A DNA stretch of 64,000 nucleotides from Methanogenium organophilum (GTDB lineage Archaea; Halobacteriota; Methanomicrobia; Methanomicrobiales; Methanomicrobiaceae), in assembly GCF_026684035.1 (NCBI RefSeq), contig NZ_CP113361.1, positions 1,860,001 through 1,924,000 on the forward strand, read 5' to 3'. A model generated the notes under the pieces. The model saw only the letters and a list, made by a program, of their open reading frames with translations, had not been told where the DNA came from and did no database searches. The stretch's first letter is position 1, and each line of letters starts with the position of its first letter. The position numbers and the translations under genes are program-made. Of this stretch, positions 5,151-64,000 are shown piece by piece.

Positions 5151-5151
5151 A

Positions 5152-6552: not shown

Positions 6553-6570
6553 ACTATTCTATGTGAAAAG

Positions 6571-6590
6571 AGAGTTTTTAATGGTATAGC
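6571..6590 (+). promoter_or_regulatory. TATA-like element before the epimerase gene
   Basis: An AT-rich GTTTTTAATGG stretch lies about 30 nt before the ATG at 6610, the distance expected for an archaeal TATA box of a nearly leaderless transcript. It is in the 57-nt divergent gap with the DUF368 gene. Assigned by position and composition only. Confidence 0.35.
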
Positions 6591-6609
6591 AGACGATATC
6601 TCGTCAGCT

Positions 6610-7548: not shown

Positions 7549-7660
7549 TCCCCTTCTTCTTATCTCTGCAGTGAGAAAAATTCCGGAAAACAGACAAACC
7601 GATATCATTTGAATATCCGAAAAATACCCGTAAATACAGGAATACGAGAGGAATGATACA

Positions 7661-8821: not shown

Positions 8822-9081
8822 TACGACGGAAACCTATCTGAAATTCACCAGGGTATTTCGAAAAAAACTGCTGTAGAATGCGGCGGGTGCCATTAGATTT
8901 GGGCATCAGACCCCAGCATCATCATCCGGTTGTCAGTGGGGGTAACTGTCATCATCTGCCCAGGTCAGGCACCGTATGCCGTTTGCATTACTACTTCTTT
9001 TCATCAGGCGATAAATATTCGCGCCCTCCGCGGGGAAGAGATAACTACCGAAGGCAGACATATCTTATATCTGACAGCAGT

Positions 9082-9594
9082 ATGACACCGGGAAAACGAC
9101 TGACAATTGGCGTGACTGTAAACCTTGAACGGTACGAAAATCTCCGTGTGGCAGTAGAAGGGGATGTCGAGACCATTGAGGACGCAGAGAATCTCGCCCG
9201 GTATCTTGACAATGTCCTCGCAGGGTTTGGGAAAAATGATCCGGAGACCGAGAAGCAGATTTCAAACTATCGGTTTCGTGTCCTGCCCGGAAGGGGAGAT
9301 GCGGCGAATGCGACAGAGGCTGGGGTACTGCAGGAAGAGGTTCCGAGGTTTGATGCGGATCTCGTGTCAGATGCAGTGACTGCTGTGACGCCTGCCTCTG
9401 ATATACAAAAGGCCGAAGAGGCCGATACTGGTGCTTGCACGCCTTCCGCGCTGGCAAAGGAGATGTCCGGGCCTGTTTGTGCGGACTGTGGTACTCCAAT
9501 AACAAAACAGGAAGACAAGCTGGGCCGCCTCTTTGTGGACCGTCCGCTCTGCAAGTCCTGTCTGGAGGCTCTCCAGAAGGCGCAACAGCACTGA
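9082..9594 (+). CDS. Hypothetical protein with C-terminal zinc ribbon, upstream of orc1/cdc6
   Basis: A 170-residue protein of unknown function. The N-terminal ~70 residues look like a small folded domain of alternating strands and helices; residues 75-125 are acidic, low in complexity and probably a flexible linker; a zinc ribbon closes the protein, with C133xxC136 and C157xxC160. A longer frame starts at 8878, but the ATG at 9082 starts the compact domain and sits after a TATA-like CTTATATC. It ends 63 nt before orc1/cdc6 on the same strand. A nucleic-acid or replication role is only a guess from position and the zinc ribbon. Confidence 0.6.
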   Translation: MTPGKRLTIGVTVNLERYENLRVAVEGDVETIEDAENLARYLDNVLAGFGKNDPETEKQISNYRFRVLPGRGDAANATEAGVLQEEVPRFDADLVSDAVTAVTPASDIQKAEEADTGACTPSALAKEMSGPVCADCGTPITKQEDKLGRLFVDRPLCKSCLEALQKAQQH

Positions 9595-9626
9595 ACATGT
9601 GCAGGGTGAAAGCAACAAACACCTAT

Positions 9627-9637
9627 TCTTATATATC
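9627..9637 (+). promoter_or_regulatory. TATA box of orc1/cdc6
   Basis: TTCTTATATAT centred about 26 nt before the ATG at 9658 is a good archaeal TATA box and implies a leaderless transcript. It falls in the 63-nt gap after the zinc-ribbon gene, so orc1/cdc6 can be transcribed on its own. Confidence 0.5.
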
Positions 9638-9657
9638 CCGGCGCGAGATTCTCTGGT

Positions 9658-10791
9658 ATGAAGAAGAACCTGCTGATGTGGGATGAGTCGCTCTTTCAGG
9701 ACATGGAGGTCTTTGAGTTTGACTTCCTCCCCGGGCAGTTCGATTTTCGCGAGACACAGGAGCAGGAGCTTGCCTTCCAGATACAACCTGCCCTTCGAGG
9801 CGGGCGCCCCTTAAATACCATCTGCCGCGGTTTACCAGGCACCGGAAAGACGACGAGTGTTCGTAAACTCTTTTCCGAGATTGAGGAGCATACCAAAAAA
9901 ATTGTGCCGGTGCACATCAACTGTCAGATCGACAATACTAAATTTGCAATATTTTCGCAGATATTCCGGCGTATCTCCGGTCACAAAACCCCTGCATCAG
10001 GAACGTCCTTTAAGCAGGTATTTGATGCGGTCTGTAACTATCTGATTACAGAGAATGTTGTCCTCCTTGTCTGTCTTGACGATGCGAACTACCTGATGTA
10101 TGAAAACGAAATTAACAAGGTCCTCTATACTCTTCTGCGTGCACATGAGTCCTATCCCGGCGCGAAAATCGGGGTGATCACCGTGATATCGGATATGTCC
10201 GTTGACCTGATGAAGACGGTTGATGCACGGGTGGCATCTGTCTTTCAGCCGACTGACATCTACTTCCCGCCGTATGACGAGGATGAGATTAAAGAGATAC
10301 TTCGTCAGCGCATCAAGCAGGGATTCTATCCGGGGGTTATCAGTGAGGGAATGCTCACCCTCATCACTGAACAGACAATGAAGGGGGGGGATCTCCGGGT
10401 GGGAATTGACCTTCTGAAACGGGCGGGACTCAATGCAGAGAAGGACGCCCGCCGGAGTGTGGAGCGCGATGACGTGTGCCGTGCATATGAAGTATCTAAA
10501 TATCTGCATCTGACAGCGACCATCCGTGCTCTCCAATCAGAGGAACGTGCACTTCTGCGCCTGATCGCTGTCCGTTCACGTGATGAAAAGGATATGGCCG
10601 CGGGAAAGGTGCATGAGGCAGTGAAGGAATCTTCAATGAAACTAGGGTATACCCGGTTCTATGAAATGGTGAAAAAATTTGATTCCATGCGTCTGATAAA
10701 TCTGCACTACCGGGAAGGGCGGGGGAGGACACGGCTGATCACAATTCGGTATGATCCGGACCGTGTCATAGAAGCGATTGATAGCTGCTGA
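9658..10791 (+). CDS. orc1/cdc6: Orc1/Cdc6 replication initiator AAA+ ATPase
   Basis: A 377-residue initiator that binds the replication origin and loads the MCM helicase. The Walker A loop GLPGTGKTT is at residues 59-67, the Walker B acidic pair at D141/D142 (written LDDAN rather than the more common LDE/LDD-E), and a sensor region DARVASVF follows. A C-terminal winged-helix part covers about 290-377. Length is close to the usual 380-420. Initiator genes often sit next to an origin, but I could not see a convincing repeated origin-recognition box in the flanking gaps. Confidence 0.88.
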   Translation: MKKNLLMWDESLFQDMEVFEFDFLPGQFDFRETQEQELAFQIQPALRGGRPLNTICRGLPGTGKTTSVRKLFSEIEEHTKKIVPVHINCQIDNTKFAIFSQIFRRISGHKTPASGTSFKQVFDAVCNYLITENVVLLVCLDDANYLMYENEINKVLYTLLRAHESYPGAKIGVITVISDMSVDLMKTVDARVASVFQPTDIYFPPYDEDEIKEILRQRIKQGFYPGVISEGMLTLITEQTMKGGDLRVGIDLLKRAGLNAEKDARRSVERDDVCRAYEVSKYLHLTATIRALQSEERALLRLIAVRSRDEKDMAAGKVHEAVKESSMKLGYTRFYEMVKKFDSMRLINLHYREGRGRTRLITIRYDPDRVIEAIDSC

Positions 10792-10841
10792 CTTCACCAA
10801 TTAACAATCCTTATCTATTTTGCTCAAGCAATGTATGCGTT

Positions 10842-10846
10842 AGGAG
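10842..10846 (+). promoter_or_regulatory. Ribosome binding site of mch
   Basis: AGGAG lies 9 nt before the ATG at 10856 and supports that start. An AT-rich TTATCTATTTT at 10811-10821 is a candidate TATA box for the gene. Confidence 0.5.
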
Positions 10847-10855
10847 ATTTCTCTC

Positions 10856-11803
10856 ATGATCAGCATTAATGAACTTGCACTTGAGCTCTTTGAGGAGCTT
10901 GCAGAGTATCCGGAAGACTTCAATGCAGTCTTCCATCAGCTTGACAACGGAGCACGCATCGTTGACTGTGGTGTTCAGGCAAAAGGCGGCTATGCCGCAG
11001 GAAAGCGCTTCACTGAGATCTGTATGGGTGGCCTTGCTGAAGTATCATTCCGGATGGGCCAGATAAACCATGTCCCGATGCCCTTCATCGATGTCAACAC
11101 TGATTTCCCGTCACTTGCGTGCCTTGGTGCACAGGAAGCAGGGTGGAGGATCACCCACGAGAAGTATTTCGCGATGGGCAGCGGCCCGGCCCGCGCTCTT
11201 TCCCGCAACCCGAAGGAGTGCTATGAGCTCATAGAGTACGAAGACGACTGTGACTATGCAGTCATCTGCCTTGAGTCTGATACACTCCCGAACGAGGCAG
11301 TGATGCAGAAGATTGCAGACGGATGCAACGTCGATGTCGCAAATGTCTGTGCAGTTGTTGCACCGACTGCATCCGTTGTCGGTTCCATCCAGGTGGCAGG
11401 CCGTTGTGTTGAGACAGCAATCTACCGCCTTGAACAGCTCCACTACGACCCGAAGAAGGTCATCTGTGCATGCGGTTCAGCTCCTGTACCTCCGGTGAAG
11501 TCGGACTCCACCAAGGCAATGGGCTGCACCAATGATGCCACTATCTACTTCGGTCAGATTAACCTGACCATCGACGGTGCTGATATCGCAGACTATGTCG
11601 ATAAGATCCCGTCCAATACCTCCTCTTCCTACGGCAAACCGTTCTACGACACATTCAAGGAGGCAAACTTCGACTTCTTCAAGATTGACCAGGGTCTCTT
11701 TGCACCCGCAGAGGTTACAATCAATGAAGTCTCAGAGGGGAAGGTATACCGCTGTGGTGCAGTAAACCCCGAAGTGACTCTTCAGTCCTTCGGCTACCTC
11801 TGA
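10856..11803 (+). CDS. mch: Methenyltetrahydromethanopterin cyclohydrolase
   Basis: A 315-residue enzyme of the CO2-to-methane pathway: it interconverts N5-formyl- and N5,N10-methenyl-tetrahydromethanopterin. The whole protein matches the archaeal Mch family, including VDCGVQAKGGYAAG near the N-terminus and a conserved central AVVAPTASVVGSIQVAGR. Length is normal. It stands alone with its own Shine-Dalgarno and a T-rich run after the stop, so it is probably monocistronic and highly expressed. Base usage is richer in C-ending codons than the neighbours, consistent with high expression. Confidence 0.96.
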   Translation: MISINELALELFEELAEYPEDFNAVFHQLDNGARIVDCGVQAKGGYAAGKRFTEICMGGLAEVSFRMGQINHVPMPFIDVNTDFPSLACLGAQEAGWRITHEKYFAMGSGPARALSRNPKECYELIEYEDDCDYAVICLESDTLPNEAVMQKIADGCNVDVANVCAVVAPTASVVGSIQVAGRCVETAIYRLEQLHYDPKKVICACGSAPVPPVKSDSTKAMGCTNDATIYFGQINLTIDGADIADYVDKIPSNTSSSYGKPFYDTFKEANFDFFKIDQGLFAPAEVTINEVSEGKVYRCGAVNPEVTLQSFGYL

Positions 11804-11808
11804 ATAAT

Positions 11809-11820
11809 CCTTTTTTCTTT
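11809..11820 (+). terminator. T-rich terminator after mch
   Basis: A run CCTTTTTTCTTT begins 5 nt after the mch stop codon. Archaeal RNA polymerase terminates at such oligo-T tracts without a required hairpin. Confidence 0.5.
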
Positions 11821-12000
11821 GGTTCCGCATTATCTGTCCGTTTCTTATCAGGGTTAGCCGTGCCTGTTGGTATCTGGTCCGCATTCATATGGATGGCTGG
11901 TGCAGAAACGTCTATATTGTATCCCAATTGTGCTGAATGATTGATTTTTTCGGAAAAACTGTTTCGTTATCTTTTTTGCTTCCCATTCAGATTCAGAAAG

Positions 12001-12195
12001 ATGACACATACACACTGCAAAAAGCACCCGGAAATTCTTGCAACCTCTTCATGTAAGACCTGTAAAAATGGTTGCTGTGATGACTGCATGGGTCCCATGG
12101 GGGTTTGCAGATCCTGCTGGTTTAAGATCGTGGCAGTGGTTTTTATTGTTATGATGGTGAGTGCCTCGGTTGTCTGGTCCTTCTGGGGATTTTAA
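12001..12195 (+). CDS. Small zinc-binding protein with one membrane anchor
   Basis: A 64-residue protein. The N-terminal part holds many cysteines and histidines (CKKHPE, SCKTCKNGCCDDC, CRSC) in a B-box-like arrangement for one or two zinc ions; residues about 42-60 form a single hydrophobic membrane segment. The cysteine-rich head would face the cytoplasm. An alternative TTG start 20 codons upstream (11941) is possible but adds only a basic, aromatic-rich extension. Function unknown; such B-box plus membrane proteins are known but uncharacterised. Confidence 0.6.
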   Translation: MTHTHCKKHPEILATSSCKTCKNGCCDDCMGPMGVCRSCWFKIVAVVFIVMMVSASVVWSFWGF

Positions 12196-12463
12196 TCCCG
12201 ACTGCTTCAATCATTTTTTTTGAATGTGCGTCACAATGGATTTGGATAACGAACGGTTGTTAGCACGTTCATGCATCTCTGATATTTTGTATGTGGATGA
12301 TGTGATCTGGAACGGGAAACCCGGCAATATGAAAATATGTGGAAGCGCGGGAACCAATGTGATGGGTGGGGTGAATGAGTGTGATGGTAAGAGCATGCAC
12401 AACATTCATTAAGACCTGTTTCTGTCTTTGTCCTGCAGGATTCTGTGCATGAATGCCCTTTTC

Positions 12464-12742
12464 TCACACCATGAGAAAGAGGGATACAAACCAGATGATT
12501 GCACCACAGTGGAGTATGAGAAAGAACGGGACTACCTTAAACTTCAGTTTTTGTGTCTTATGGCGGAACTTCCGCATGCCTGCGTACGCACCGAAAGGCC
12601 CGAGGAATGCTGCGATGATGAGTGTCTTCTCCGGGGTGCGCCATGCACCGTTTTCTGCCTTGCGTTTGTCCCGTCCGTAGACAAGAAATGCGATGATATT
12701 TACCACGACGTAGAGGGCCGCGAAGATGATGAAGGTATCCAT
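12464..12742 (-). CDS. DUF1294 small membrane protein
   Basis: A 92-residue membrane protein. After a first membrane helix (residues 3-22) comes the DUF1294 hallmark YGRDKRKAENGAWRTPE, then a second segment with GPFGAYAGMRKFRHKTQKLKF, and a last helix. These match the DUF1294 family, whose function is unknown. A longer frame reaches to 12997, but its first 85 residues look non-coding and the ATG at 12742 begins exactly at the family's usual N-terminus. Confidence 0.8.
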   Translation of the reverse strand: MDTFIIFAALYVVVNIIAFLVYGRDKRKAENGAWRTPEKTLIIAAFLGPFGAYAGMRKFRHKTQKLKFKVVPFFLILHCGAIIWFVSLFLMV

Positions 12743-13007
12743 AGGGTGTAATTCCTTTCGTTTTTCCGGGAGAGGGGTGATGAGAGATAGTCCAATGGCC
12801 CAATGGCACAATAGGGAAACCAAACCCGGCGAATGTCGTTTTATAGATCTGTGGCGGCGTATGTTATATAGGCAGCAGAAATGAACGGGAGGGGCTGTCA
12901 AAATGAGATCTCCGGGATGTATTCTGTCTGTTAGCAATTCCGTCCAGAGGAATACACAAGGCTTAATATCTTTGAAAAAAATGAATTTAAGGCACAACGT
13001 GCATACA

Positions 13008-13081
13008 GGGCTTGTGGTCTAGTTGGTTATGACATCGCCTTTACACGGCGAAGATCCCCGGTTCGAATCCGGGCAGGCCCA
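13008..13081 (+). tRNA. tRNA-Val (anticodon UAC)
   Basis: A full cloverleaf folds from this segment: the acceptor GGGCTTG pairs with CAGGCCC with one G-U pair, the anticodon stem TCGCC/GGCGA closes a TTTACAC loop with TAC at 13042-13044, and the T arm CCCGG-TTCGAAT-CCGGG is perfect. The discriminator is A at 13081. No intron and no encoded CCA. It would read GUA and, by wobble, other Val codons. Confidence 0.96.
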
Positions 13082-13090
13082 CTCGTTATC

Positions 13091-13117
13091 ATTTTTTGTG
13101 TTGATTTACCTTTTTTA
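13091..13117 (+). terminator. Two T6 tracts after tRNA-Val
   Basis: T runs at 13092-13097 and 13111-13116 lie just downstream of the tRNA and are the expected termination signal for the archaeal polymerase. Confidence 0.5.
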
Positions 13118-13228
13118 CCGGAGCTAATTACGATTTATCTAAATCATCCCATGAGTGTTGGAATATACTTATGGAATGAAATCGGCTAATGTCCGATATA
13201 CTCTTTAACTGAAGTATTAATCTGACTT

Positions 13229-13714
13229 TCAGGCCACCGGCACATAAATCTCTGTCAGAATATCCTCCTCTGCCACCTCCATCGGGTCATTTACATATAT
13301 TTCCCGAATCGGGCCGGTGACCTCCTTGCCGTGTTCAGCCATCCATGCGAAGATCTTATTGTAGGTTGTCTCTGATGCTGCATACGGGCCTTTATGGACG
13401 GCTTTCACCATTTTTCCGCCAGGAAGTTCGTAACATTTTGCTCCTTTCGGACTGTTTTCTGTAATTTCAATGGACGCCGCCACTGGGAGTGCTACTTCAA
13501 TGTCGGCGTTTCCCTCTTCTGCTGCCCGCATCGCCTCTTCCGGGGATGTTTCATGGCAGACAAAGACTGGCATGCCGATAATCTCAATTCCTTCCTGCTC
13601 CACGTAGAGAAAGAGCTCCATAATCATCTCAGGGATCTGTTCCTGATAAAATCCGCGGCGTCGCATGCCAAGGACGGTCTGCGCAGCCACGTCGGTTATG
13701 GTAATATCTGTCAT
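13229..13714 (-). CDS. GyrI-like effector-binding domain protein
   Basis: A 161-residue stand-alone GyrI-like (AraC effector-binding) domain. It opens with a strand leading into VLGMRRRGFYQEQIPEMIMEL and ends with the typical IREIYVNDPMEVAEEDILTEIYVPV, the segment in which a conserved glutamate often lines the small-molecule pocket. No DNA-binding domain is attached, so it may act as a ligand-binding or hydrolase-like protein rather than a regulator. It is monocistronic, facing the tRNA gene. Confidence 0.8.
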   Translation of the reverse strand: MTDITITDVAAQTVLGMRRRGFYQEQIPEMIMELFLYVEQEGIEIIGMPVFVCHETSPEEAMRAAEEGNADIEVALPVAASIEITENSPKGAKCYELPGGKMVKAVHKGPYAASETTYNKIFAWMAEHGKEVTGPIREIYVNDPMEVAEEDILTEIYVPVA

Positions 13715-13883
13715 AGTTGTTCGTTTTGTGAATCGCAGGGCGTGCTATTTATGCATTGGCCCGGCGGAGTGAAAGTGAAAACTAGTTTCAGGCTGCCCAT
13801 GTGCAGGAGCATTGGGATATCTCACTGTTGTTGTTTATCTCTGATTGTGAGAAGTAATTAAAAAATAAGAGAATCCGGAAAAA

Positions 13884-14648
13884 TTAAACTCCCGCAAAGA
13901 TTACGGAAAATGTTTCTGCATCTTCCGCCGTCTCTTCCCATGGGCGTCCATACCCTGCGTCAAAATTGCCGGACGGCTCGCCGTCAAAAGTCACGAGCCA
14001 CTTGTGAATACCGCCTGCACCGGAAATAGGTATTTCTGAGTAAGGTGGGACGAATGAGTCTGTGACAATTTCTGCACTGCCGGAGACGGACGCATTCCAC
14101 TGGTATCCGGTCGTCGGGTTCTCATCCAGTGTGACAAGCACAGCATCGCCCTTTGACACAGAGATAGTCGTGCCGTTATTCGCGCTGATAACATCCACCA
14201 CCGTCGTCCCTTCCGGAGCCACGTAGAAGGTGATCGTGTAGGTCTCATCATCCGGATGGGCGTCCTCCCACGGACGGACGTATACGGCGCTGAATGTCAC
14301 GATTCCCGTCACCTTCGGCTCCAGTGCCCAGACATGGGTCCCTCCGGCACCAGGCCGCTCCTCTTCGGGCGGGACGTATGCATCACTCGTGATAGCAAGG
14401 CCGTCAGCATTAGTCACATTCCAGGAGTACCCGGTGGTAGGGTTCTCCGGAAGTGTTATCCGGATCTCGGTTTGCATGTCAACGGGAATGATGTCATCGT
14501 TGTTGTTTTGCCCAACAAGGACGATTTTGTCCTGCACCGCAACGGGTGTCGGTGTTTCTCCTCCTGCTGTCTCAGTCGTAGTGCACCCTGCCGCACAGAG
14601 AATGCCTGCAAGGGCGACTGCCATCAGAATTCCATATACTGGTTTCAT
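13884..14648 (-). CDS. Lipoprotein with two chagasin-type (I42) protease-inhibitor domains
   Basis: A 254-residue secreted lipoprotein: a signal peptide ends at a lipobox-like AAGC with cysteine 22, then a Thr/Pro-rich spacer. Two chagasin-like domains follow at about 42-145 and 150-254. Each shows the inhibitor loops NPTTGY (69-74 and 177-182), a GAGGxH loop, and RPWE (125-128 and 235-238). Chagasins inhibit papain-family cysteine proteases from outside the cell. The tandem arrangement suggests an internal duplication. Likely anchored on the cell surface. Confidence 0.85.
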   Translation of the reverse strand: MKPVYGILMAVALAGILCAAGCTTTETAGGETPTPVAVQDKIVLVGQNNNDDIIPVDMQTEIRITLPENPTTGYSWNVTNADGLAITSDAYVPPEEERPGAGGTHVWALEPKVTGIVTFSAVYVRPWEDAHPDDETYTITFYVAPEGTTVVDVISANNGTTISVSKGDAVLVTLDENPTTGYQWNASVSGSAEIVTDSFVPPYSEIPISGAGGIHKWLVTFDGEPSGNFDAGYGRPWEETAEDAETFSVIFAGV

Positions 14649-14762
14649 AGGCGCTCAGTGGAATATGGATGGGAAGATTGATAAATCAAGCGATAATTAC
14701 GAAATATTTGGCACTCATGGCTCGCTTATGCAAAAAAAGAGGAATTATGTGTTTTTCTACTG

Positions 14763-15995
14763 TTACCGCTTTCGCCACAGCACAAGAAGGAGCAGCACGC
14801 CGAGGGCGACAACCGCCCAGAGGAATATGTAGTAGTATGGTGTTTCATCAGCTTCTGTGCGGGCCATCAGAGCAATGTGGGCGGGTTCTGTCACAGTCAT
14901 CTGCAGTATCTGTGAACCCTCTTCTGATACGTCCGGAACTGCCATCAACACCGGCTCCGTGCCATCCGTCCGGTAGATTCCATAGGTATTCCCCGCAATT
15001 CCGGGCAGCTCTGCCGGAATGTCTGCCTCGATGGTGACCGATGGCGCTTCGGCAGACTCTGCCGCGGAGATGAAGGTGATGTTCATTGCGTCGCCGAAGA
15101 GCTGGTATCCCTCGGGCGGGGTATATGTGTCAGCAAGGAGACCGAAGTCCCGGCCGCTCACGGTATATGGGTCACAGCAGTATGTGGTGTTTGAGAAGAT
15201 GTCTGCTGCGAAGTACGTCGGTCCCTCAAGAGACGGAGTCTCTACCGAGCAGCCGGACGCCGCATAGAACTGGATGTACTGGATGACATCCGAAAATGCC
15301 GACCCGGTGATGGAGCAGTCAGTGATGCCTACGCCCAGAATCCCTGCACCGTTCCCTGTAAAGGTGGTATTGGTTATCTCACAGCGCTCAGCATTCTCTG
15401 CGAGAATCCCCAGTTCTGCACCCATGAGGTGGACGCCCTCCAGTGCCGTATCCTCCGTGTCCCGGAGGGTGATTCCGATGCCGTCCGCGGTGACCTGGCA
15501 CCCGGATATCTTCGTCCCCATGCAGAACATGGTTTCAATACCGGTCTGCGCAGCCATTACCTGTGTGGTGGCAAGGGTGCTCTCATTACACCTGCTGCAG
15601 AGGATCCCCACACCATCGCTGATCACCCTGCAGTCCCGGACCACAAGCCCATCCGTCTGGTTTGCGATGATACCTACGCCCGCCGCAGTGCACGCCAGAT
15701 TCCGGATGATCACATCATCTGCGGTCACAGAGAGGGCCGTGGTGTCCCCGGCAGTGCCAATCGTTGCCCCTTCCTCCCCGGAGACTGTGACCGGGACGCC
15801 AATCACCACTCCGCCGGGATAGGTGCCGGCTCGTACCACGATCTCATCCCCGGGCGCCGCTGCATCCAGTGCCTGATGCAGGTCTGTATATGCACCTCCA
15901 TCCGGTGCAACCGTGAGGGTCGCCCCCTGGACCCCGCCCATCGCGATAAGGATACAGAGAAGGACGGCGAGTACACGTGCTGCCTTTTCGGTCAT
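14763..15995 (-). CDS. Surface right-handed beta-helix (NosD-like) protein
   Basis: A 410-residue exported protein: signal peptide (1-24), then TLTVAPDGGAYTDLHQALDAAAPGDEIVV, the standard opening of NosD/pectate-lyase-type beta-helix proteins, with helix turns to about residue 250. A smaller beta-rich domain follows, and a C-terminal membrane helix (about 387-405) ends in WRKR, anchoring it outside. It is the last gene of a three-gene operon and overlaps the preceding stop by 4 nt (ATGA). Such proteins bind or process surface polysaccharide; no enzyme activity can be assigned. Confidence 0.75.
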   Translation of the reverse strand: MTEKAARVLAVLLCILIAMGGVQGATLTVAPDGGAYTDLHQALDAAAPGDEIVVRAGTYPGGVVIGVPVTVSGEEGATIGTAGDTTALSVTADDVIIRNLACTAAGVGIIANQTDGLVVRDCRVISDGVGILCSRCNESTLATTQVMAAQTGIETMFCMGTKISGCQVTADGIGITLRDTEDTALEGVHLMGAELGILAENAERCEITNTTFTGNGAGILGVGITDCSITGSAFSDVIQYIQFYAASGCSVETPSLEGPTYFAADIFSNTTYCCDPYTVSGRDFGLLADTYTPPEGYQLFGDAMNITFISAAESAEAPSVTIEADIPAELPGIAGNTYGIYRTDGTEPVLMAVPDVSEEGSQILQMTVTEPAHIALMARTEADETPYYYIFLWAVVALGVLLLLVLWRKR

Positions 15996-26519: not shown

Positions 26520-27620
26520 ATGAGTGACAATTATACAGCAGAACGTCAGCGTCTTATTACGGAGATGCAGACAGAGATTATCGAAACTGATCGGAAAATC
26601 TCTGAATTCAGCAAAATACACGGGGCGGGAAAATATGCACTGGTTCTGATTTTTGTCGCATTTATTATGAATGTCATCTTCTTTGCAGAACTTCCCAATT
26701 ATAGCCTGTTCTGGGTGGTGGCATCATTCCTCCTGCTGATGTTCAACCCCATTATTCTGATGCTTCCTACGCAAAAAGCAGATATTGCCTTTCCGTCAGG
26801 CAAAGGGAGCGGGGGTTTCACCGATCTCGTGCGGGATGCGGCAGTAAGTGCCGGCACGGCAGTTACGCGTGAACGCAAACTCTATGCAGAGACGCTCTGG
26901 AACCTCTTCTTCATTAACTGTCAGCCAATAGCTCCCGGTTTTATTCTGCTTTTTTCCGTAAGCATCATTCTTGCTCTTATTGGCCTAATCACCGGATTCT
27001 TTGAACTCCGATCAGGAATCATACTGATTGTGCAGTCCCTTGCAATTATTGCATTTTATTCCGGGATACTGAAGATCAAACCATATTCTCCGGGCTTCTT
27101 CTCAGGGATTATGGGAATACGCACTGACATCTCACGCCGCCTGAACCAGGGAATCGCAAATGGCATGAAATTTATTCTTGTCCTGGCCTTCCTTGCGGCC
27201 ATCTCGGGAGTGCTGATACTGGGTGTCCTGCTCCTTCCGGGCCAGTCATTATCCAGTGTAATGAGAATTGAAGGATTTGTCGCCCTCGGACCGAATGCCA
27301 TTCCTCTCCTCCTTGTATTTCTCTCCCAGCTGCTCGTGGTGCGCTATTTCCAGGGGATATACAGCAGGAGGCTGGTCCTTGACCTCTCTGAATATAATCA
27401 CGGGCTTCTGCAGGGTACCCTGCTCCGTGATGTTCAGGCACTGCCGGAGACGCCTGGTGAGGAGGCTGAGAAAGAACTGGAGATCATTGGGAAGGCATAT
27501 CAGCGGTTGCATATGTTCAAGGTGGATGATCAGGCGTTTGCCGGATATTTCCCGGTGTGGATGATCGTCCCCAATCTTGATGTGATGATTCAGCGGGCAC
27601 CGAAAAAAGAAAATGGCTGA
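26520..27620 (+). CDS. Hypothetical multi-spanning membrane protein
   Basis: A 366-residue protein with a short coiled-coil-like N-terminus (about 5-32), then two adjacent membrane helices (about 38-58 and 64-84), a soluble loop with a charged TAVTRERKLYAE segment, two more helices (about 140-165 and 168-190), and two further helices (about 215-240 and 258-282). The last 80 residues are soluble and acidic. I recognise no family. It starts with ATG after a purine-rich GGGAG at 26505-26509 and ends 9 nt before a convergent lipoprotein gene. Confidence 0.6.
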   Translation: MSDNYTAERQRLITEMQTEIIETDRKISEFSKIHGAGKYALVLIFVAFIMNVIFFAELPNYSLFWVVASFLLLMFNPIILMLPTQKADIAFPSGKGSGGFTDLVRDAAVSAGTAVTRERKLYAETLWNLFFINCQPIAPGFILLFSVSIILALIGLITGFFELRSGIILIVQSLAIIAFYSGILKIKPYSPGFFSGIMGIRTDISRRLNQGIANGMKFILVLAFLAAISGVLILGVLLLPGQSLSSVMRIEGFVALGPNAIPLLLVFLSQLLVVRYFQGIYSRRLVLDLSEYNHGLLQGTLLRDVQALPETPGEEAEKELEIIGKAYQRLHMFKVDDQAFAGYFPVWMIVPNLDVMIQRAPKKENG

Positions 27621-27629
27621 GGATAGGTT

Positions 27630-28163
27630 TTACACGTCATCCCTGAGCATGATGATGACGCCGTAGTTATAGGGTTCAGCGGGATTAATCTGCATCCCGT
27701 CTTTCAGTCCTACAACGGCGAAATTTTCTGTTTTCACATTCATTGGGAAGATACGGTCCGTCATGGATTTATACGGAATGCCTGATGCAATGATGTCTTC
27801 ATAGGATGTTATGGTAAAGTCCTTAGGGACGTCTGCATAATTGTAGGCAAATCCGACCATAAAGAGATTGTCTCCCTCGCTTGCCATATTGCTCCCCGTT
27901 GCTGTGGCATCAATATCAAGGCTGACATAGACCCCAAAGACATTTTTTATCGGATCCGCCCTGATGGATGTTTTGTAGTCAGGCACACCGGGTGATTTGA
28001 TAAAGATGGGGTCGGTAACTGTCCAGGTTTCTTCCTCAGTCGGCACAGGAGTGACTTCGGGGGTTGCAGGTTCTGCGGGTTCGTCTGTTGTGGCACATCC
28101 ACATGCCAGTACAGCAAGGAAAAGTGCAACAATGATGACAGATATTGTTCCTCTTAGTTTCAT
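27630..28163 (-). CDS. Hypothetical lipoprotein
   Basis: A 177-residue exported protein. The signal peptide ends in AVLACGC, with the lipid-acceptor cysteine about residue 23, then a Glu/Pro/Thr-rich spacer. The remaining ~130 residues are a beta-rich domain with no known motif. A second ATG 5 codons upstream (28178) is possible; the ATG at 28163 sits directly at the basic start of the signal peptide. It converges on the membrane protein gene. Confidence 0.6.
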   Translation of the reverse strand: MKLRGTISVIIVALFLAVLACGCATTDEPAEPATPEVTPVPTEEETWTVTDPIFIKSPGVPDYKTSIRADPIKNVFGVYVSLDIDATATGSNMASEGDNLFMVGFAYNYADVPKDFTITSYEDIIASGIPYKSMTDRIFPMNVKTENFAVVGLKDGMQINPAEPYNYGVIIMLRDDV

Positions 28164-28267
28164 GGTAGAAGATCCCATGCGAATATATAAAGTATATCTG
28201 TTGTCCCTGGATTCCTTGTGCTGTTTCCATATGTTTATTAGTGGTCTTTAACAAAATTGGCTATCAT

Positions 28268-29173
28268 ATGACATCCGGCGAATATCCCACTGCAAAGGTT
28301 AACGGGGAGGAGATCCCGTACGACCCTGACGTACTAAGGAAGATCCAGGAACACCCATGCTACAGCGAAAAGGCATGCCATACGTTCGGGAGAATGCACC
28401 TCGCAGTGGCACCAAAATGCAATATTCAGTGTAATTATTGTATCCGTGACTTTGACTGTGTCAACGAAAGCCGCCCTGGTGTCTGCAGTAAGGTGCTCAC
28501 TCCTGAAGAGGCTCTGGTGCTGGTACGGGAAGTGATGGGGAAGTTCTCCTATATCAAGGTGATAGGCATTGCAGGACCGGGGGACCCCCTTGCAAATGAG
28601 GAGACCTTTGAGACCCTCCGTCTTCTCAAAGAAGAATTCCCGGTGCCGATCAAGTGCCTCTCCACAAACGGGCTGATGCTTCCGGAGAATATTGACCGTC
28701 TTGAAGAATATGATGTGGGGAACATCACTGTCACCTGCAATGCAATAGACCCTGCCATCGGTGAACAGATCTACTCCTTTGTGGAATGGGAAGGAGAGAA
28801 ACTGCATGGACGTGAAGCAGCAGAACGGCTCCTTGCACAGCAGTTGAAAGGTATTGAGATGGCTGTGGAACGCAAGATGCTCGTCAAGGTGAACACGGTC
28901 CTGATCCCTGGTGTCAATGACCATCATATCGTTGATATTGCAAAGAAGATGGGTGAGATGGGTGTCTATACCTTCAATATCATTCCGGTCATCCCGCAGT
29001 ATAAGTTTGCTCACATTACTCCGCCAACCCCTGCCGACAAGAAGGCGATGCATGATGCATGTGCCCCATATATCCGCCAGATGAAGCACTGTGCACGCTG
29101 TCGCTCTGATGCGATAGGAAAACTGGGAAAAGACGTACAGGATGAGATCTACCGGAACTGCGGTTCACTCTAA
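28268..29173 (+). CDS. nifB: NifB-type radical SAM protein (iron-sulfur-carbide cluster precursor synthesis)
   Basis: A 301-residue radical SAM enzyme of the stand-alone archaeal NifB type. It has HPCYSEKACHTFGRMH before the SAM motif CNIQCNYC (C51, C55, C58), then FDCVNESRPGV and near the C-terminus HCARCRSDAIG, all hallmarks of NifB, which fuses two [4Fe-4S] clusters with a carbide into the [8Fe-9S-C] L-cluster. The C-terminal NifX-like domain of bacterial NifB is absent, as in other methanogens. No nifHDK genes are in the window. A GTG start 27 nt upstream (28241) is possible. Confidence 0.88.
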   Translation: MTSGEYPTAKVNGEEIPYDPDVLRKIQEHPCYSEKACHTFGRMHLAVAPKCNIQCNYCIRDFDCVNESRPGVCSKVLTPEEALVLVREVMGKFSYIKVIGIAGPGDPLANEETFETLRLLKEEFPVPIKCLSTNGLMLPENIDRLEEYDVGNITVTCNAIDPAIGEQIYSFVEWEGEKLHGREAAERLLAQQLKGIEMAVERKMLVKVNTVLIPGVNDHHIVDIAKKMGEMGVYTFNIIPVIPQYKFAHITPPTPADKKAMHDACAPYIRQMKHCARCRSDAIGKLGKDVQDEIYRNCGSL

Positions 29174-29993: not shown

Positions 29994-30470
29994 ATGGCGA
30001 CCGGAAATGTCCGCTGTCTTCTTCTCTCTGCCGCATGTATATGTGCGGCGATCTTTGGGGCGGGCTGTCTTGGTGCACCTGGATCACAGGACTTTCTCCC
30101 TCCTACTCCCGGCGAAATAGATGTTGTGCCTGGATTTCAGGTGGCAGAGGCAGACGCTTCACTCACCCTGACGCGGTTAATCGAAGAATGGATTGCGGAA
30201 AATCCTGACCTTGCAGGGTATTCGGTGGATATGTTCTATAACGGCACTCCCCTTGAGGTGGTTGAGAGTAGTAGTTGCCATCGTGACGACGGCACCCCGA
30301 CAGTCTATGTCCATACCTTCCGTTATACAATGCCGTCACTGAAGGATCCGGAGCATATGCAGGATGATGTTACCCTGCAGATCACGGTTGTGGACGGTGC
30401 TGTCACAGAACGGCTGGTATCGATGGGCAGCATATCGATGGGCAGCAGTGTGACGGTTACGGGTGTCTGA
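29994..30470 (+). CDS. Hypothetical lipoprotein
   Basis: A 158-residue exported protein. The signal peptide ends in a lipobox-like FGAGC with cysteine 25 followed by LGAPGS. The body is a small beta-rich domain (about 45-158) with two internal short repeats, SMGSISMGSS. No catalytic motif seen; family unknown. Convergent with the threonine aldolase gene. Confidence 0.55.
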   Translation: MATGNVRCLLLSAACICAAIFGAGCLGAPGSQDFLPPTPGEIDVVPGFQVAEADASLTLTRLIEEWIAENPDLAGYSVDMFYNGTPLEVVESSSCHRDDGTPTVYVHTFRYTMPSLKDPEHMQDDVTLQITVVDGAVTERLVSMGSISMGSSVTVTGV

Positions 30471-58081: not shown

Positions 58082-59026
58082 TTAGACCATTATTTTCGTC
58101 TCTGAAAATGGCCGTATACGGATAAGGATATAATCACGCATACGGGAAGGGAGAATGTGGGTAATGTCACCAATTTTAACACCGTTTTCAATTTCAATTG
58201 CAGCAATTGAATCTGCATAGGCATCATACGGCAGTTTAACGCGGAGTGCACGTATCTGGACCGTGATGGGTGTAGGATGGGTTGACCGGTCGGTTATATC
58301 CATTGCATCATCAAGGACTGCCATCAGACGTGCCGGATTCACAGAAAGAGGATCTTTTGCAACGTCTTCACGCTTTTGAGAAAGAACTGACGATACCTCA
58401 TCAACGAGTGCATCGAGACGGTCGATTTCGCCCTCCTGCCGTTTCATCCGGTGGCCGATTCTTCCGATTCCGCCAACGTATCCGTCAACAGGGGGATCAA
58501 TAATGCGCTGCAGTGCCTCTGTGGAAGGCCGTCCGGTGAGAATGATGGGCACATTTATTCCCCTGCGCAGAGCAGGCATTTTATACTCTATGCAGGATTC
58601 AAAGTTGCCGAGCATCATCACTGCACAGTCATGCTCATTGATGATGTCACGTTCTTCGATATTCAGGTTTGCAATCCGTTTACCAAAACCACGGGCAAGG
58701 CCAATCATATTGGTCTTCGCCCCGGCGCTTCTGAGATATTCTGCTACATCACATGAGGTATGGGGCAGGTGATGGATCTCAAGACTGGGGCTGATGACAG
58801 CAATTTCGGTCCCTACAAGGGGAGCCTCAAACACCTCGCCTGCCAGAGGACGACTGATTTTCCGTATCAGTTCAATATCGTCTTTTGGCACGAGGGACTG
58901 TAGCACCACTTCCTGGGCAAGCATGTGTTTCTGAACGATATATCCTCCAAGGTCATCAATAAGGTCAATGACAATGTCGTGGCGGTATACTCCTCCTTTG
59001 TAGGTGATAGGAACAAGGACGGTCAT
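58082..59026 (-). CDS. Methanogenesis marker protein 7
   Basis: A 314-residue protein of the marker 7 family, found in methanogens. It has a segment HTSCDVAEYLRSAGAKTNMIGLARGFGKRIANLN and later RMKRQEGEIDRLDALVDEVSSVL. Its start overlaps the marker 17 stop by 4 nt (ATGA). As I recall from recent structural work, marker proteins 3, 7 and 17 join McrC and the A2 ATPase in the complex that activates methyl-coenzyme M reductase; the sequence alone cannot show that. Last gene of the cluster. Confidence 0.88.
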   Translation of the reverse strand: MTVLVPITYKGGVYRHDIVIDLIDDLGGYIVQKHMLAQEVVLQSLVPKDDIELIRKISRPLAGEVFEAPLVGTEIAVISPSLEIHHLPHTSCDVAEYLRSAGAKTNMIGLARGFGKRIANLNIEERDIINEHDCAVMMLGNFESCIEYKMPALRRGINVPIILTGRPSTEALQRIIDPPVDGYVGGIGRIGHRMKRQEGEIDRLDALVDEVSSVLSQKREDVAKDPLSVNPARLMAVLDDAMDITDRSTHPTPITVQIRALRVKLPYDAYADSIAAIEIENGVKIGDITHILPSRMRDYILIRIRPFSETKIMV

Positions 59027-59616
59027 GCTGTCACCCCCACCAGAGCAAATTTCTCCTTTAGAAGTGTTTCAATGACCTCTTCATCCAGCGTGTTCTCGCT
59101 TGCCACATAGCTGAAGAGCCCTTCTCCGACAGTCTGGCGTCGGACCTTGAATCCTTCGGGAGCAATCCACTGGAGTGCATAGATGATGTCATGGAACATC
59201 CCCTCGCTCGGGTCAACAATAACTATCTCCTCAATCGCACGGGGGTCCAGATTCGGCACGCGGATCTTTACTGTGAACCGGTCGGGCTGGGTGATTAGAT
59301 CACGTCCATAGGTGTCCCAGAGGATGGACAGCATCGGTGAGAGATAGGTCTCGGAGCCGATGTCCAGCACAATTCCTTCATCAGTTTTCAGGGCACTTGC
59401 AACGTCATGGATATGCACAAGTCCAGGCATCTTTTTGATAATTCCTACTGCAAGAAAGAGCGGTGTTTCCAGGTCTATGTAGATGTGAAGTCTGCCAATG
59501 GACTGGTTCAGGTTGAGATCCGAGAGAATGTCATCTGCAATCTGGCGGTATGTTTCAGCACCCACTGATTCCGTGCATTCCACAACAAAGTACTCAAGCC
59601 CTTTCATGGCAGTCAC
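59023..59616 (-). CDS. Methanogenesis marker protein 17
   Basis: A 197-residue protein of the marker 17 family. No known catalytic motif; the sequence ends in a regular strand-helix region with [17 protein letters not shown]. It overlaps both neighbours by 4 nt (ATGA), so it is made together with markers 7 and 15. It belongs to the set proposed to form the MCR activation complex. Confidence 0.88.
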
Positions 59617-60854
59617 TTCTCCTCAATAAATCCTGATGCAAGGAGGGCCGACCCGACCGAACCGATATACTGCGAATGGTGTGGCACCAGAATATCTGTC
59701 TGGAGCAGATCACCCATCTCATGGACCAGGCCCTCGATAAGTGAGGTGCCGCCGACCATGATCACCGGCTCTTTAATGTCAACTTCCTGGAGCTGCTGCT
59801 CAAAGACTTGTTCTGCGACACTGCGGCATGCAGCTGCGGCTACATCTTCTTTGGAGTTCCCTTCTGCCAGTGCATTGACGAGACTTTGTGTCCCGAATAC
59901 GATACAGTAACTGTTCATGGGGACGGTCTTTGATATGCCTTTCATAGCAATCGGGCCAAGTTCGGTGATGTCCACGCCTATTCGTTTGGCGGTCATCTCA
60001 AGGAACCGTCCGGACGCGCCGGCACAGATGCCACCCATGGTGAACGTGCCGGGGATACCGTCCTGGACAGAAATTGCCTTGTTGTCCATACCCCCGATAT
60101 CAATCACTGTCGCTTCGCCATGCTGCCGGTCAGCCAGATATACCGCACCCTTGGAATTAACGGTCAGTTCTTCCTGAATAAGGTCGGCTCCGATCTTGTC
60201 TCCGATCAGGTGCCTGCCATATCCGGTGGTGCCAATGGCCTCAATGTCTCCCATTTCAAGACCTGCCTCCTTCAGAGCCGCCTCAATAACACCATTTGCG
60301 CTGTTTATCACTTCGGTGGTGGGCATCCAGCCGGTACCAATTATCTCATTGTTCCGCATGATGACCGCTTTTGTTGTCGCAGACCCTGAGTCAATACCCA
60401 TCGTCGTCCCTTTCTGCTTTTCACGGGCAAGAAGTGCCCGTCTGCGGGCGATGGTGGTGAGCGCTTCCATCCGGGTGAGGAGTGTCCCTGATGTGGTGCG
60501 TTCGGTAAAGGAATAACTCACGACCGGGAGGTCTGAGTGTTCATGGATGTAGCGCCGCAGTTCATTGCGGACAATTGCTGCTTCCGCACAGCGGAAACAG
60601 GTGGCAATAAAGACTGCATCAGCCTCTACATTTCCCTCAACGAGTGCCATGGCACGGGCAATGGCAAGTTTCAAATCTCCTGACCGTGCTTCAAGACCGA
60701 ATGCATCATACGACCGGCGGATATCGGCAAGGGTCACATCCGGAAAGAACATCTCGGCATTGACCGCCTCTGCTGCATCATAGATCTCCTTTTGCACACC
60801 ACTGTGTTCTGGTCCACAGGAGAGTTGCGCTACGCGGACTGGTTGTTCACTCAT
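59613..60854 (-). CDS. Methanogenesis marker protein 15 (BadF/BcrA/HgdC-type ATPase)
   Basis: A 413-residue protein. An N-terminal part (about 1-140) with [13 protein letters not shown] and [12 protein letters not shown] precedes a C-terminal ASKHA ATPase of the 2-hydroxyglutaryl-CoA-dehydratase activator type: phosphate loop [24 protein letters not shown] and [13 protein letters not shown] with the family's cysteine. In dehydratase systems such activators use ATP to push low-potential electrons, so this one may do similar work in nickel-cofactor reduction. ATG 60854 lies within the end of marker 5 by 8 nt. Confidence 0.88.
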
Positions 60855-61302
60855 TGTTCTCACCACCAAGTCCCGTAAGGAATTCCTTTATCTGTGTGAC
60901 AAATGCGGTGCCTTCCTCTTCGCTATACGGGTATTTGATATCCAGGACGGGCAGTCCTTCCTGCTGGCGCACCATGTACATCACCAGTTCATTCGTGCGG
61001 GCACACCCCATGCACCCAAAGGAGAGGTCTGCATCATTGATGATGATTGCGGCATCGGCTTCTTCAATAAGAGGGCCGTAGATAGACATCCTTCCGCGGA
61101 CTCCGCAGGGGACCTCTACTGCGGCATATTTGAGTCCTTTTTTCGGGTCTTCCGGTGTCATCTGGAGAGGTGGCGAGTCAAGACTGGGAGTTTGGATCCG
61201 TTCCCGTATACTGGTCGCTGCCCCCAGTGCTTCATGGCCCCATCTCTCTACCATATCTGAGAGCACAAGGCTTGTTGCAGGGTAAATAAACACTTTTGCC
61301 AT
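60847..61302 (-). CDS. Methanogenesis marker protein 5
   Basis: A 151-residue protein of the marker 5 family. It has a [13 protein letters not shown] motif, a likely metal or Fe-S ligand group, and [22 protein letters not shown] before it. ATG 61302 is preceded on the minus strand by GAGGAGG 8-9 nt upstream, which fixes the start; a longer frame to 61335 overlaps the marker 6 end. Four nt separate it from marker 6. Confidence 0.85.
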
Positions 61303-61306
61303 TCTG

Positions 61307-61774
61307 TTATGCCTCCTCGTTTCTGATAATCTCAACTAATTTTTCCAGGGGTAACTTTCCTTCATCCAGTTTCTTCTTCCCGAACCGTGGGAATTCTGGT
61401 GTGGTGTTCTTTTCGAGTTCTTCAAGGCCGTGAGAGACATACCGGAAGAGTCCGCTCTCAAATTCATGACCATAGTATCCCGGTCGTGCACCGCCAAGAT
61501 TTGCACGGCACCGGCGTGTATCGCCGGGTGGGAATCCACGGTCTTTTACGAATATATGGGCCGGGTCAACCTTTCTCAGTTCAGTGATGAGTTTTTTCAC
61601 GTTCTCCGGAGCGCCTGTTACCTGCAGTCCGAAACAGGTTTCTTTGATCATCAGACCGTCAGAGATTTCATACGCACGTATCGCAAGGGTCTGGGGTGTT
61701 ACGTCCGGTGAATCTATGAATACATACTTTGTTACGGTACCAACGTATGTGGGGACATACTGGTCTCTGCTCAT
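61307..61774 (-). CDS. Methanogenesis marker protein 6
   Basis: A 155-residue protein of the marker 6 family. The middle holds RGFPPGDTRRCRANLGGARPGYYGHE, a conserved stretch with a single cysteine. Its ATG overlaps the marker 3 stop by 4 nt (ATGA). No enzyme activity is known; the gene is part of the coupled cluster. Confidence 0.87.
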   Translation of the reverse strand: MSRDQYVPTYVGTVTKYVFIDSPDVTPQTLAIRAYEISDGLMIKETCFGLQVTGAPENVKKLITELRKVDPAHIFVKDRGFPPGDTRRCRANLGGARPGYYGHEFESGLFRYVSHGLEELEKNTTPEFPRFGKKKLDEGKLPLEKLVEIIRNEEA

Positions 61775-63324
61775 CGGGACACCTCCCGAATATAGACGGT
61801 GCTGCCTTCTTTCAGGGCAGCAAGTTTCTCCGGTTCACAGACGCGCCCAATTATATTTGTGCCTTCAAATGGTTCCGATGTTGGGCCAAACTCACTGTTT
61901 TCTGTGGTTCTGCATCCAACAAGGCCGGTAATTTTCCGAGAGTCATTGGTAATGGCAAGCATATTGGCAGGGACACTGTTTTCCGGCGTATTTTCCTTAT
62001 TAATGTTTGTGCCTTTTTTTATCTGTGGCTGGAACAGCAGGACGTCATCAAATTTCATAAGAAGCGGCATTTCACCAATCTCATGCCATCTGAGACCGGT
62101 CACGGATCGGAATATGTAGCAGCTTCGGGGGGCCTCGGCATCAAAAAGTTCAACAGAGATGACCTGAGATGCCGGAATGGTGGTGACATATACTGTTTTT
62201 TTGGCAAGCACTTCCAGCGTGGTCTTCGGGGACTGTGAGATCACCACCCGTTCCCCTGTGGATTCATCTGTTTCAAGGGTAACTCCCCGTTTATCTGCAG
62301 TTTCCTGTGCGAGAGATAGTGCCATCCCGCAGAGATCAAACTGTGGTGGTTCCACATCAAAGAGGAATGTCTCGCCGTCACCTGCGATGCGTGCCAGTTC
62401 AATGCCATGCTCAACACTGGCAACGACCGTATGGTTCGGACTTCCGGCAATATCATCTGTGTATATGAATACCGAGCCCCGGTTTCTTCCTTTCACGCGG
62501 ACAGTTACCGTGCCTTCAAACCGGGAGTGCGGAACACCTTCGTAGAATACTTCACTCTCACGCATGCGATCATCGCGGATATGGGTGCCTGAGGTCAGTG
62601 AGACTGTGTATCTACCCGTCCTGTAGGTGAGAAGGAGGTGCTCAACACTCTGTGCATGGGTAGTATCAATCTCTTCCTCCCGATACCCCGCCGCACGGGC
62701 CCGTGCATGGGTGATGATACTCATGCCGTCTTCCAGGATGAGATCCTGTTTGGTGGTTGTGAAGGCATTTGATGCATCCGCACTTCGGATAATCCGTTCC
62801 ATCGAGATGATTGCATCCTTGGGCTTCCACTCTTCGAGGACTGACATCCCTGAAATGACTTTTCCAACAATACCTCCTTCTTTTGCAGCGCCATGGTCTG
62901 CAATATGGGGTGATTTGGAAAATATGAGGTACGATCTTTCTGCGTCATATCCCCCACACCCAAGGATAACGTCACCGCGTGCATAGCGGTGTGGGGATCG
63001 TTTTGGGATGATATCTGTCGGAAAAGGTCCAAATGCTGCCGCCTGTCGGTCGGCCCATTTCAAAATAAGTTTCTCTGGATGAGTACCGGTTTGAGAACCA
63101 CCAGTGATAAATTTCTGAAAAACAGGAGGTGCTTCACCGAATATTTCGATGATTACCTCTCCCGCGGTGGTTGTTACGCGGATATTGCGCGTGGTTGCGG
63201 ACTCTGTTTCCACAGGTCGTATAATCGCAACACTGCATTCCGGGGGATGGGTAGGGATAATATCCCCAAGTACCGCTCCATCCGGTACTTCCAGCCTCTC
63301 GTCATCGAGGCGGATCTCTGTCAT
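61771..63324 (-). CDS. Methanogenesis marker protein 3 (cyclophilin-like domain)
   Basis: A 517-residue protein of the marker 3 family. It begins with a ubiquitin-like MTEIRLDDERLEVPDGAVLGDI strand pattern and has a central part with GKVISGMSVLEEWKPKDAI that resembles a peptidyl-prolyl isomerase fold, consistent with a chaperone or scaffold. The ATG at 63324 matches this N-terminus; a longer frame to 63405 overlaps the AtwA stop and looks spurious. It follows atwA by 13 nt and is named among the MCR activation factors. Confidence 0.85.
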   Translation of the reverse strand: MTEIRLDDERLEVPDGAVLGDIIPTHPPECSVAIIRPVETESATTRNIRVTTTAGEVIIEIFGEAPPVFQKFITGGSQTGTHPEKLILKWADRQAAAFGPFPTDIIPKRSPHRYARGDVILGCGGYDAERSYLIFSKSPHIADHGAAKEGGIVGKVISGMSVLEEWKPKDAIISMERIIRSADASNAFTTTKQDLILEDGMSIITHARARAAGYREEEIDTTHAQSVEHLLLTYRTGRYTVSLTSGTHIRDDRMRESEVFYEGVPHSRFEGTVTVRVKGRNRGSVFIYTDDIAGSPNHTVVASVEHGIELARIAGDGETFLFDVEPPQFDLCGMALSLAQETADKRGVTLETDESTGERVVISQSPKTTLEVLAKKTVYVTTIPASQVISVELFDAEAPRSCYIFRSVTGLRWHEIGEMPLLMKFDDVLLFQPQIKKGTNINKENTPENSVPANMLAITNDSRKITGLVGCRTTENSEFGPTSEPFEGTNIIGRVCEPEKLAALKEGSTVYIREVSR

Positions 63325-63337
63325 TGTATTACTCCAC

Positions 63338-64000
63338 TTAGACGTTTGCCATAATTTGTCGCTCTTTATCTGAAAGTTCCTGGAGCACCTCTGCAGTCGG
63401 TCCAATCTTCACGATTTTTCCGCCTCTCATGAGAATACACCTGTCGCAGATATCGCGTACAAATTCCATGTCGTGGGAGACTACAATAAATGTTTCATCT
63501 ATTTCTTCACGTGCTGTCACAATAGAGTGCTTTACGTCAATCTTGGTGATGGGGTCCATGGTTCCGGTTGGTTCATCGAGAATGACAATTCTGGGCTCTT
63601 TGATAAGCACCTGAGCAAGGGCAACCCGATGTTTTTCACCTTCTGAGAGTTGATCCGGACGACGGTTGAGAATGCCTTTTGCCTTCTCTTCGGTGAATCC
63701 GGCCATCTTCAGAGTGATGATTGCCTTGCGCATGGCAAGTTCCTTAGGGAATTCAAGACCGATGGAGTCGGTAAGGTTGTCAAGAATACTCCGGTGAGGA
63801 TAGAGATCATACTCCTGGTGGAGAAGGCCAATGTATTTTTTGGCCCGGCCCCGCTGTTCTATACCAGGCTTTGTCATGTCCACGCATTCATCACCGATAC
63901 GGATATTCATATCACCGGCAGTCGGTTCGATAATCCCTGCAATCATCTTGGAAAGGGTAGTTTTCCCTGCACCCGATGTTCCGATAATTCCGAAAATTTC
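63338..64000 (-). CDS. atwA: MCR activation ATPase component A2 (AtwA), C-terminal part
   Basis: The C-terminal ~220 residues of component A2, a double-ABC ATPase that drives reductive activation of the nickel cofactor in methyl-coenzyme M reductase. In this part the second ATPase has Walker A GTSGAGKTT (near the window end), signature LSEGEKHRVALAQVL and Walker B IVILDEPTGTMD with the H-loop VVSHDMEF. The gene runs beyond the window. It is the first of the seven cluster genes seen here. Confidence 0.9.
   Translation of the reverse strand, partial: EIFGIIGTSGAGKTTLSKMIAGIIEPTAGDMNIRIGDECVDMTKPGIEQRGRAKKYIGLLHQEYDLYPHRSILDNLTDSIGLEFPKELAMRKAIITLKMAGFTEEKAKGILNRRPDQLSEGEKHRVALAQVLIKEPRIVILDEPTGTMDPITKIDVKHSIVTAREEIDETFIVVSHDMEFVRDICDRCILMRGGKIVKIGPTAEVLQELSDKERQIMANV

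Follow-up and report, generated by a model that had tools for sequence, protein, structure and literature searches.

The single NifB found in the genome of Methanogenium organophilum, encoded by a gene that is not linked to nitrogenase genes, most likely feeds both the McrC/Mmp7 sites of the MCR activation complex and the NifEN/nitrogenase system. Shared supply is the simplest reading because one NifB is accompanied by two acceptor systems, and this reading builds on directly observed gene content, conservation of motifs and ligand positions, co-occurrence, and purifying selection. The NifB family makes the [8Fe–9S–C] precursor. In the proposed scheme, NifB would fuse two [4Fe–4S] clusters around a SAM-derived carbide, and the resulting precursor would have two destinations. 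One is the ATP-driven MCR activation complex, with its cluster sites in McrC and Mmp7, which is required whenever methane is produced; the other, when nitrogen is fixed under nitrogen limitation, is NifEN and then NifDK.

A connection of NifB with methanogenesis has already been proposed in print (PMC12176620, PMC8809328). PMC12176620 gives NifB a probable role in forming the clusters of MCR activation and names it as the enzyme that synthesizes them, and PMC8809328 places a methanogen nifB outside the nif cluster and states that it may not serve nitrogen fixation alone. A preliminary description of this DNA, which read nifB as a methanogenesis gene, is half right and already published in that half, and its title is misleading for this genome.

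The nifB gene and its product

The genome (G000) is one contig (C1) of 2,648,164 bases (~2.65 Mb), and the window, the whole stretch of 64,000 nucleotides analysed here, corresponds to G000:C1:1860001-1924000. The gene has the following position in the window:

28268..29173, plus strand: nifB, encoding a stand-alone NifB of 301 aa without a NifX domain

The start of the gene is backed by a homologue in locus L053. The protein scores 357.4 bits in a profile search with TIGR01290 (nifB), above the cut-off of 343.65, and its single Pfam domain at E ≤ 0.001 is Radical_SAM. The HPC, CxxxCxxC, and CxxCRxDA motifs are all present, and residues C31, H44, C51, C55, C58, C64, C130, C275, and C278, which we take to belong to particular clusters, are identical in 109 or 110 of the 110 NifBs compared (80 from named loci and 30 from a profile search of the phylum sample). 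The best PDB match is 6y1x (E 1.7e-133), with nearly the whole length covered, and the other three structures of stand-alone archaeal NifB (7bi7, 7jma, and 7jmb) are matched at ~3e-74; no notable difference from these structures is seen, and the window NifB is an ordinary member of the family. The hallmarks of NifB claimed in the preliminary description are thus present, with the motifs intact and the profile score over the cut-off. Judged from its sequence, the family assignment as NifB is beyond doubt, and the protein is predicted to have NifB enzyme activity.

The closest named record to the window NifB comes from a Methanogenium sp. MAG (89% identity), in which the gene order on both flanks is largely kept, and this places the genome among the Methanomicrobiales; nifB differs from the Methanogenium homologue with a dN of 0.057 and a dS of 0.793. 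Three ORFs near nifB, at 26520-27620 (plus strand), 27630-28178 (minus strand), and 29994-30470 (plus strand), were without a hit in either Pfam or NCBIfam; good conservation in L053 is seen for the first two, each of which also has weak matches in two more loci. The window carries one copy of nifB, in contrast to the tandem pairs found in a Methanogenium MAG (L053:6765-7742 and 8001-8903, with the upstream copy ~25 residues longer) and in Methanoculleus sp. MH98A (L058:6559-7443 and 8001-8885).

A nif operon elsewhere on the contig

The genome-wide PF00148 and PF00142 searches gave zero matches in the window, and to that extent the earlier statement that no nif genes are near nifB stands. The same searches led to a nif operon on the same contig at C1:1.033-1.043 Mb, ~0.85 Mb from the window, with nifH, two P-II genes, nifDKEN, and modAB, and the title "without nitrogenase genes" fails on this operon. 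In coordinates of locus L017 (C1:1028000-1046000), its genes are:

4782-5606: nifH, over the NCBIfam cut-off
5620-6390: two P-II genes
6412-8028: nifD, over the NCBIfam cut-off
8031-9401: nifK, 422.7 bits, below the cut-off of 427.3, in operon order
9426-10814: nifE, over the NCBIfam cut-off
10811-12232: nifN, 272.8 bits, below the cut-off of 326.8, in operon order
12593-13228: AnfO-like gene
13344-14174: modA
14032-14976: modB

All nifHDKEN ORFs are full-length, nifX is not among the 11 genes scanned in L017, and an alignment of NifD shows that Cys and His of the cofactor-ligand type, which we take to be the cofactor ligands, are kept. The consecutive order of nifH, two P-II genes, and nifDKEN, with nifB unlinked, resembles that of the nif operons of M. 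maripaludis and Methanocaldococcus FS406-22 described in PMC8809328; the present operon differs from that description in being followed by modAB and an AnfO-like gene.

A second NifB was not detected: the TIGR01290 search gave one match in this genome, and the next hit in a protein search of it reaches 25.3 bits, with 28% identity. The claim that nifB is not a nitrogen-fixation gene is contradicted because the nif operon is present and a single NifB is found; a complete nif operon elsewhere without a dedicated second NifB had been named in the preliminary description itself as evidence against that claim.

NifB could still serve MCR activation only, with the nif operon silent or non-functional. 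The scores of nifK and nifN under their curated cut-offs speak for this reading, as does the retention of NifB without NifD in many members of the order (see below), but nifHDKEN are full-length and arranged as an operon that also includes two P-II genes and modAB, the catalytic-type Cys and His of NifD are kept, and no other NifB was found in the genome. We consider an exclusive role in MCR activation improbable, and the nif operon is predicted to be functional and to draw on the same NifB as the MCR activation complex.

The motif GGAA-N6-TTCC, an NrpR operator of methanogen nif genes, occurs twice in the window (1.30 expected), with neither match close to nifB, and once at the nif locus (0.44 expected), within the 3' end of nifH. 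It is absent from both the nifB and nif promoters, and the search is uninformative on regulation.

A mercury methylation corrinoid protein, HgcA, is encoded just upstream of the nif operon at L017:2649-3794 (G000:C1:1030648-1031793; 445.7 bits, cut-off 275). A CfbC-like NifH homologue (418.8 bits, cut-off 402) is encoded beside two PF00148 proteins at L018:7178-10110 (C1:805-808 kb), apart from CfbD and CfbB at 2.49 Mb. This locus, in which the start of the second PF00148 ORF is uncertain, was rejected as a third Nif-type client, since the first PF00148 protein has no Cys where NifD has its cofactor Cys, in the numbering that we assume for the latter.

The MCR activation genes

The other end of the window encodes a methanogenesis marker cluster:

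58082..59026, minus strand: mmp7, cluster-binding subunit of the MCR activation complex (TIGR03274, 407 bits)
59023..59616, minus strand: mmp17, MCR activation complex subunit (TIGR03291, 170.9 bits)
59613..60869, minus strand: mmp15, a marker cluster gene that is not among the named subunits of the complex (TIGR03286, 735.9 bits)
60847..61335, minus strand: mmp5, marker cluster member (TIGR03271, 225.5 bits)
61307..61774, minus strand: mmp6, marker cluster member (TIGR03272, 137.4 bits)
61771..63405, minus strand: mmp3, MCR activation complex subunit (TIGR03268, 465.6 bits)
63338..64000, minus strand: atwA (component A2), truncated at the window edge, with the complete gene reaching G000:C1:1924942

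The scores of Mmp7, Mmp17, and Mmp3 exceed their NCBIfam cut-offs. The C-terminal 202 aa of AtwA are matched in the window, and the complete protein in the genome has 534 aa and scores 852 bits against TIGR03269. The preliminary description had listed atwA and marker proteins 3, 7, and 17 together with NifB in the window, and the profiles recover all of them, atwA as a partial gene. With mcrC at C1:669683-670282, the whole MCR activation complex set of McrC, Mmp7, Mmp17, Mmp3, and A2 is encoded in the genome. A further gene of the window, at 1680-2555 on the minus strand, encodes methanogenesis marker 12 protein (337.4 bits, cut-off 180.85).

Cryo-EM saw [8Fe–9S–C]-like clusters in McrC and Mmp7, with C12, H49, C55, and H118 of McrC and H84, C90, and C143 of Mmp7 as cluster ligands, and the carbide of these clusters still awaits validation, according to PMC12176620. 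All seven positions are kept in the aligned M. organophilum proteins, with the McrC residue numbers counted by hand on the alignment and those of Mmp7 given in M. maripaludis numbering. The same five proteins as in the MCR activation complex structures (PDB 8s7v, 8s7x, and 9h1l) are thus encoded here with the seven named ligands, and the difference lies in mcrC, which is distant from the marker cluster. McrC and Mmp7 would be the recipients to which NifB delivers its product.

The nifB gene lies about 29-36 kb from mmp7, mmp17, mmp3, and atwA, and the preliminary description had placed weight on their sharing one window. Little of that weight is left. Among the matches listed, the distance between nifB and mmp7 is at most 60 kb for 5 of the 6 single-contig genomes within the family and for 2 of the 36 outside it; these 42 genomes are those with both coordinates among the matches listed, with the best-scoring NifB used and genome sizes rounded. 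In the flanks of 80 named NifB loci (≤8 kb, often less), zero ORFs had a marker-cluster protein as their best match, the atwA query being the 202-aa C-terminal part only. The proximity of nifB to the marker cluster is family-level synteny, and linkage to mmp7 was rejected as a functional signal on the basis of the 2 of 36 genomes outside the family. Nif genes are close to nifB in 3 of the 80 named loci, all three in records labelled bacterial.

Occurrence of NifB with Mmp7 and NifD

A phylum sample of 295 genomes, requested at ≥90% completeness, was searched with TIGR01290 (NifB), TIGR01282 (nifD), and TIGR03274 (Mmp7), applying self-set limits of E ≤ 1e-50 to NifB and Mmp7 matches and of E ≤ 1e-120 to NifD-like ones; 24 weak NifB matches and 1 weak Mmp7 match were counted as absent. 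NifB and Mmp7 occur together in 174 genomes, Mmp7 alone in 4, NifB alone in 12, and neither in 105, so that NifB is present in 174 of the 178 genomes bearing Mmp7. When 55 genomes with NifD-like proteins were left out and three with intermediate NifD scores (G067, G097, and G107) were set aside, the remaining 237 genomes gave counts of 122, 3, 9, and 103, respectively. The genomes are related, and these counts are phylogenetically correlated rather than independent events; Fisher p values, which presuppose independence, carry no weight here. The named control M. jannaschii is positive for NifB and Mmp7 and negative for nifD.

In the order sample, which includes the present genome, NifB is found in 75/75 members, Mmp7 in 74/75, and NifD in 16/75, and 59 of the 75 keep NifB without NifD; the lone member without Mmp7 (G270, 400 contigs) has McrC. 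The dN/dS of nifB is 0.075-0.148 in all 10 pairs from five nif-less genomes of one genus, so NifB is maintained without nitrogenase, under purifying selection. PMC12176620 describes NifB as essential in methanogens, those that lack nitrogenase genes included, and as a probable participant in forming the clusters of the MCR complex. The part of the preliminary description that called NifB a methanogenesis gene is thus borne out by the NifD-independent co-occurrence with Mmp7, by selection in nif-less relatives, and by the published proposal.

These observations also bear on the reading that NifB serves nitrogen fixation only in M. organophilum. The nif operon and the single NifB would fit such a role, but the 59 order members that keep NifB without NifD include close congeners of nif bearers, in which the gene is under purifying selection, the McrC/Mmp7 ligand positions are intact, and essentiality in nitrogenase-free methanogens has been published (PMC12176620). 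An exclusive role in nitrogen fixation is therefore very improbable, and supply of both systems by one NifB remains the preferred reading.

Exceptions in both directions

Four genomes carry Mmp7 only: G048, in which a C-terminal NifB fragment is present; G272, with an assembly of 270 contigs; G175; and G183. In G183 (40 contigs, 99% complete; L135 and L138), Mmp7 and McrC are both encoded and none of the seven ligand positions is lost, and NifB was not detected by the TIGR01290 search; the short PF00148 match of this genome, at 69.5 bits, is probably CfbD-like. G175 (L137; 230 contigs), from the same family, has Mmp7 and gave no match to NifB, full-length McrC, or PF00148, and is a weak case of a NifB-less genome. 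The two genomes have 67 radical SAM matches; NifB motifs are absent from all ORFs of at least 200 aa at the 30 loci that were fetched and inspected, and the other 37 were judged by the TIGR01290 search alone. Haloarchaeal methanogens were ruled out as their identity by composition (median pI 6.30, GC 0.41), which would presumably fit Methanoliparia. In at least one MCR-bearing lineage, represented by G183, the McrC/Mmp7 sites may be filled in the absence of NifB.

The converse exception is formed by six small genomes (G006, G015, G024, G031, G037, and G043; L146, L147, and L149-L152), which have NifB homologues of 193-244 bits, below the curated cut-off, and no McrC, Mmp7, or PF00148 match in profile searches. 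The six homologues form one clade in the tree (support 1.0). The cysteines of the radical SAM motif are retained in 6/6, as are C31, H44, and C130, and C275 and C278 in the 5/5 sequences that reach that region; Val replaces C265 in the 5/5 that extend that far, and C64 is a Cys in 1/6. Neighbourhoods were viewed in five of the six genomes, with a domain scan on G031 alone: in G015, G031, and G043 a block of HerA, NurA, Rad50-like, and Mre11-like genes immediately precedes the nifB homologue, in G024 the homologue follows a Rad50-like gene, and G006 has no such block. Since a NifB homologue is encoded in these six genomes with no match for Mmp7, McrC, or PF00148, NifB without nitrogenase does not by itself prove a role in MCR activation.

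Both kinds of exception favour the view that the conserved non-nitrogenase role of NifB is to supply another cluster client common to methanogens, with the co-occurrence with Mmp7 being indirect: NifB homologues occur where neither client system was detected, and G183 has Mmp7 and McrC without a detected NifB. This view is nevertheless unlikely, as 174 of the 178 Mmp7 genomes carry NifB and the cryo-EM clusters of McrC and Mmp7 described in PMC12176620 mark these proteins as direct clients. It is conceivable, if rather doubtful, that NifB has a third client in archaea and that G183-like lineages fill the McrC/Mmp7 sites without it; for M. organophilum, supply of McrC/Mmp7 and of NifEN by the one NifB is the reading that we retain.

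Implications

That NifB is linked to methanogenesis has been recognised only recently, and it has a bearing on the origin of nitrogenase cofactors. Finding no nif genes around nifB must not be equated with a lack of nitrogenase, and the exceptions in the phylum are places to probe both the strict need for NifB in MCR activation and further clients of NifB. In M. organophilum, both systems may have to rely on a single NifB, and nifB would then be needed even when no nitrogen is fixed.
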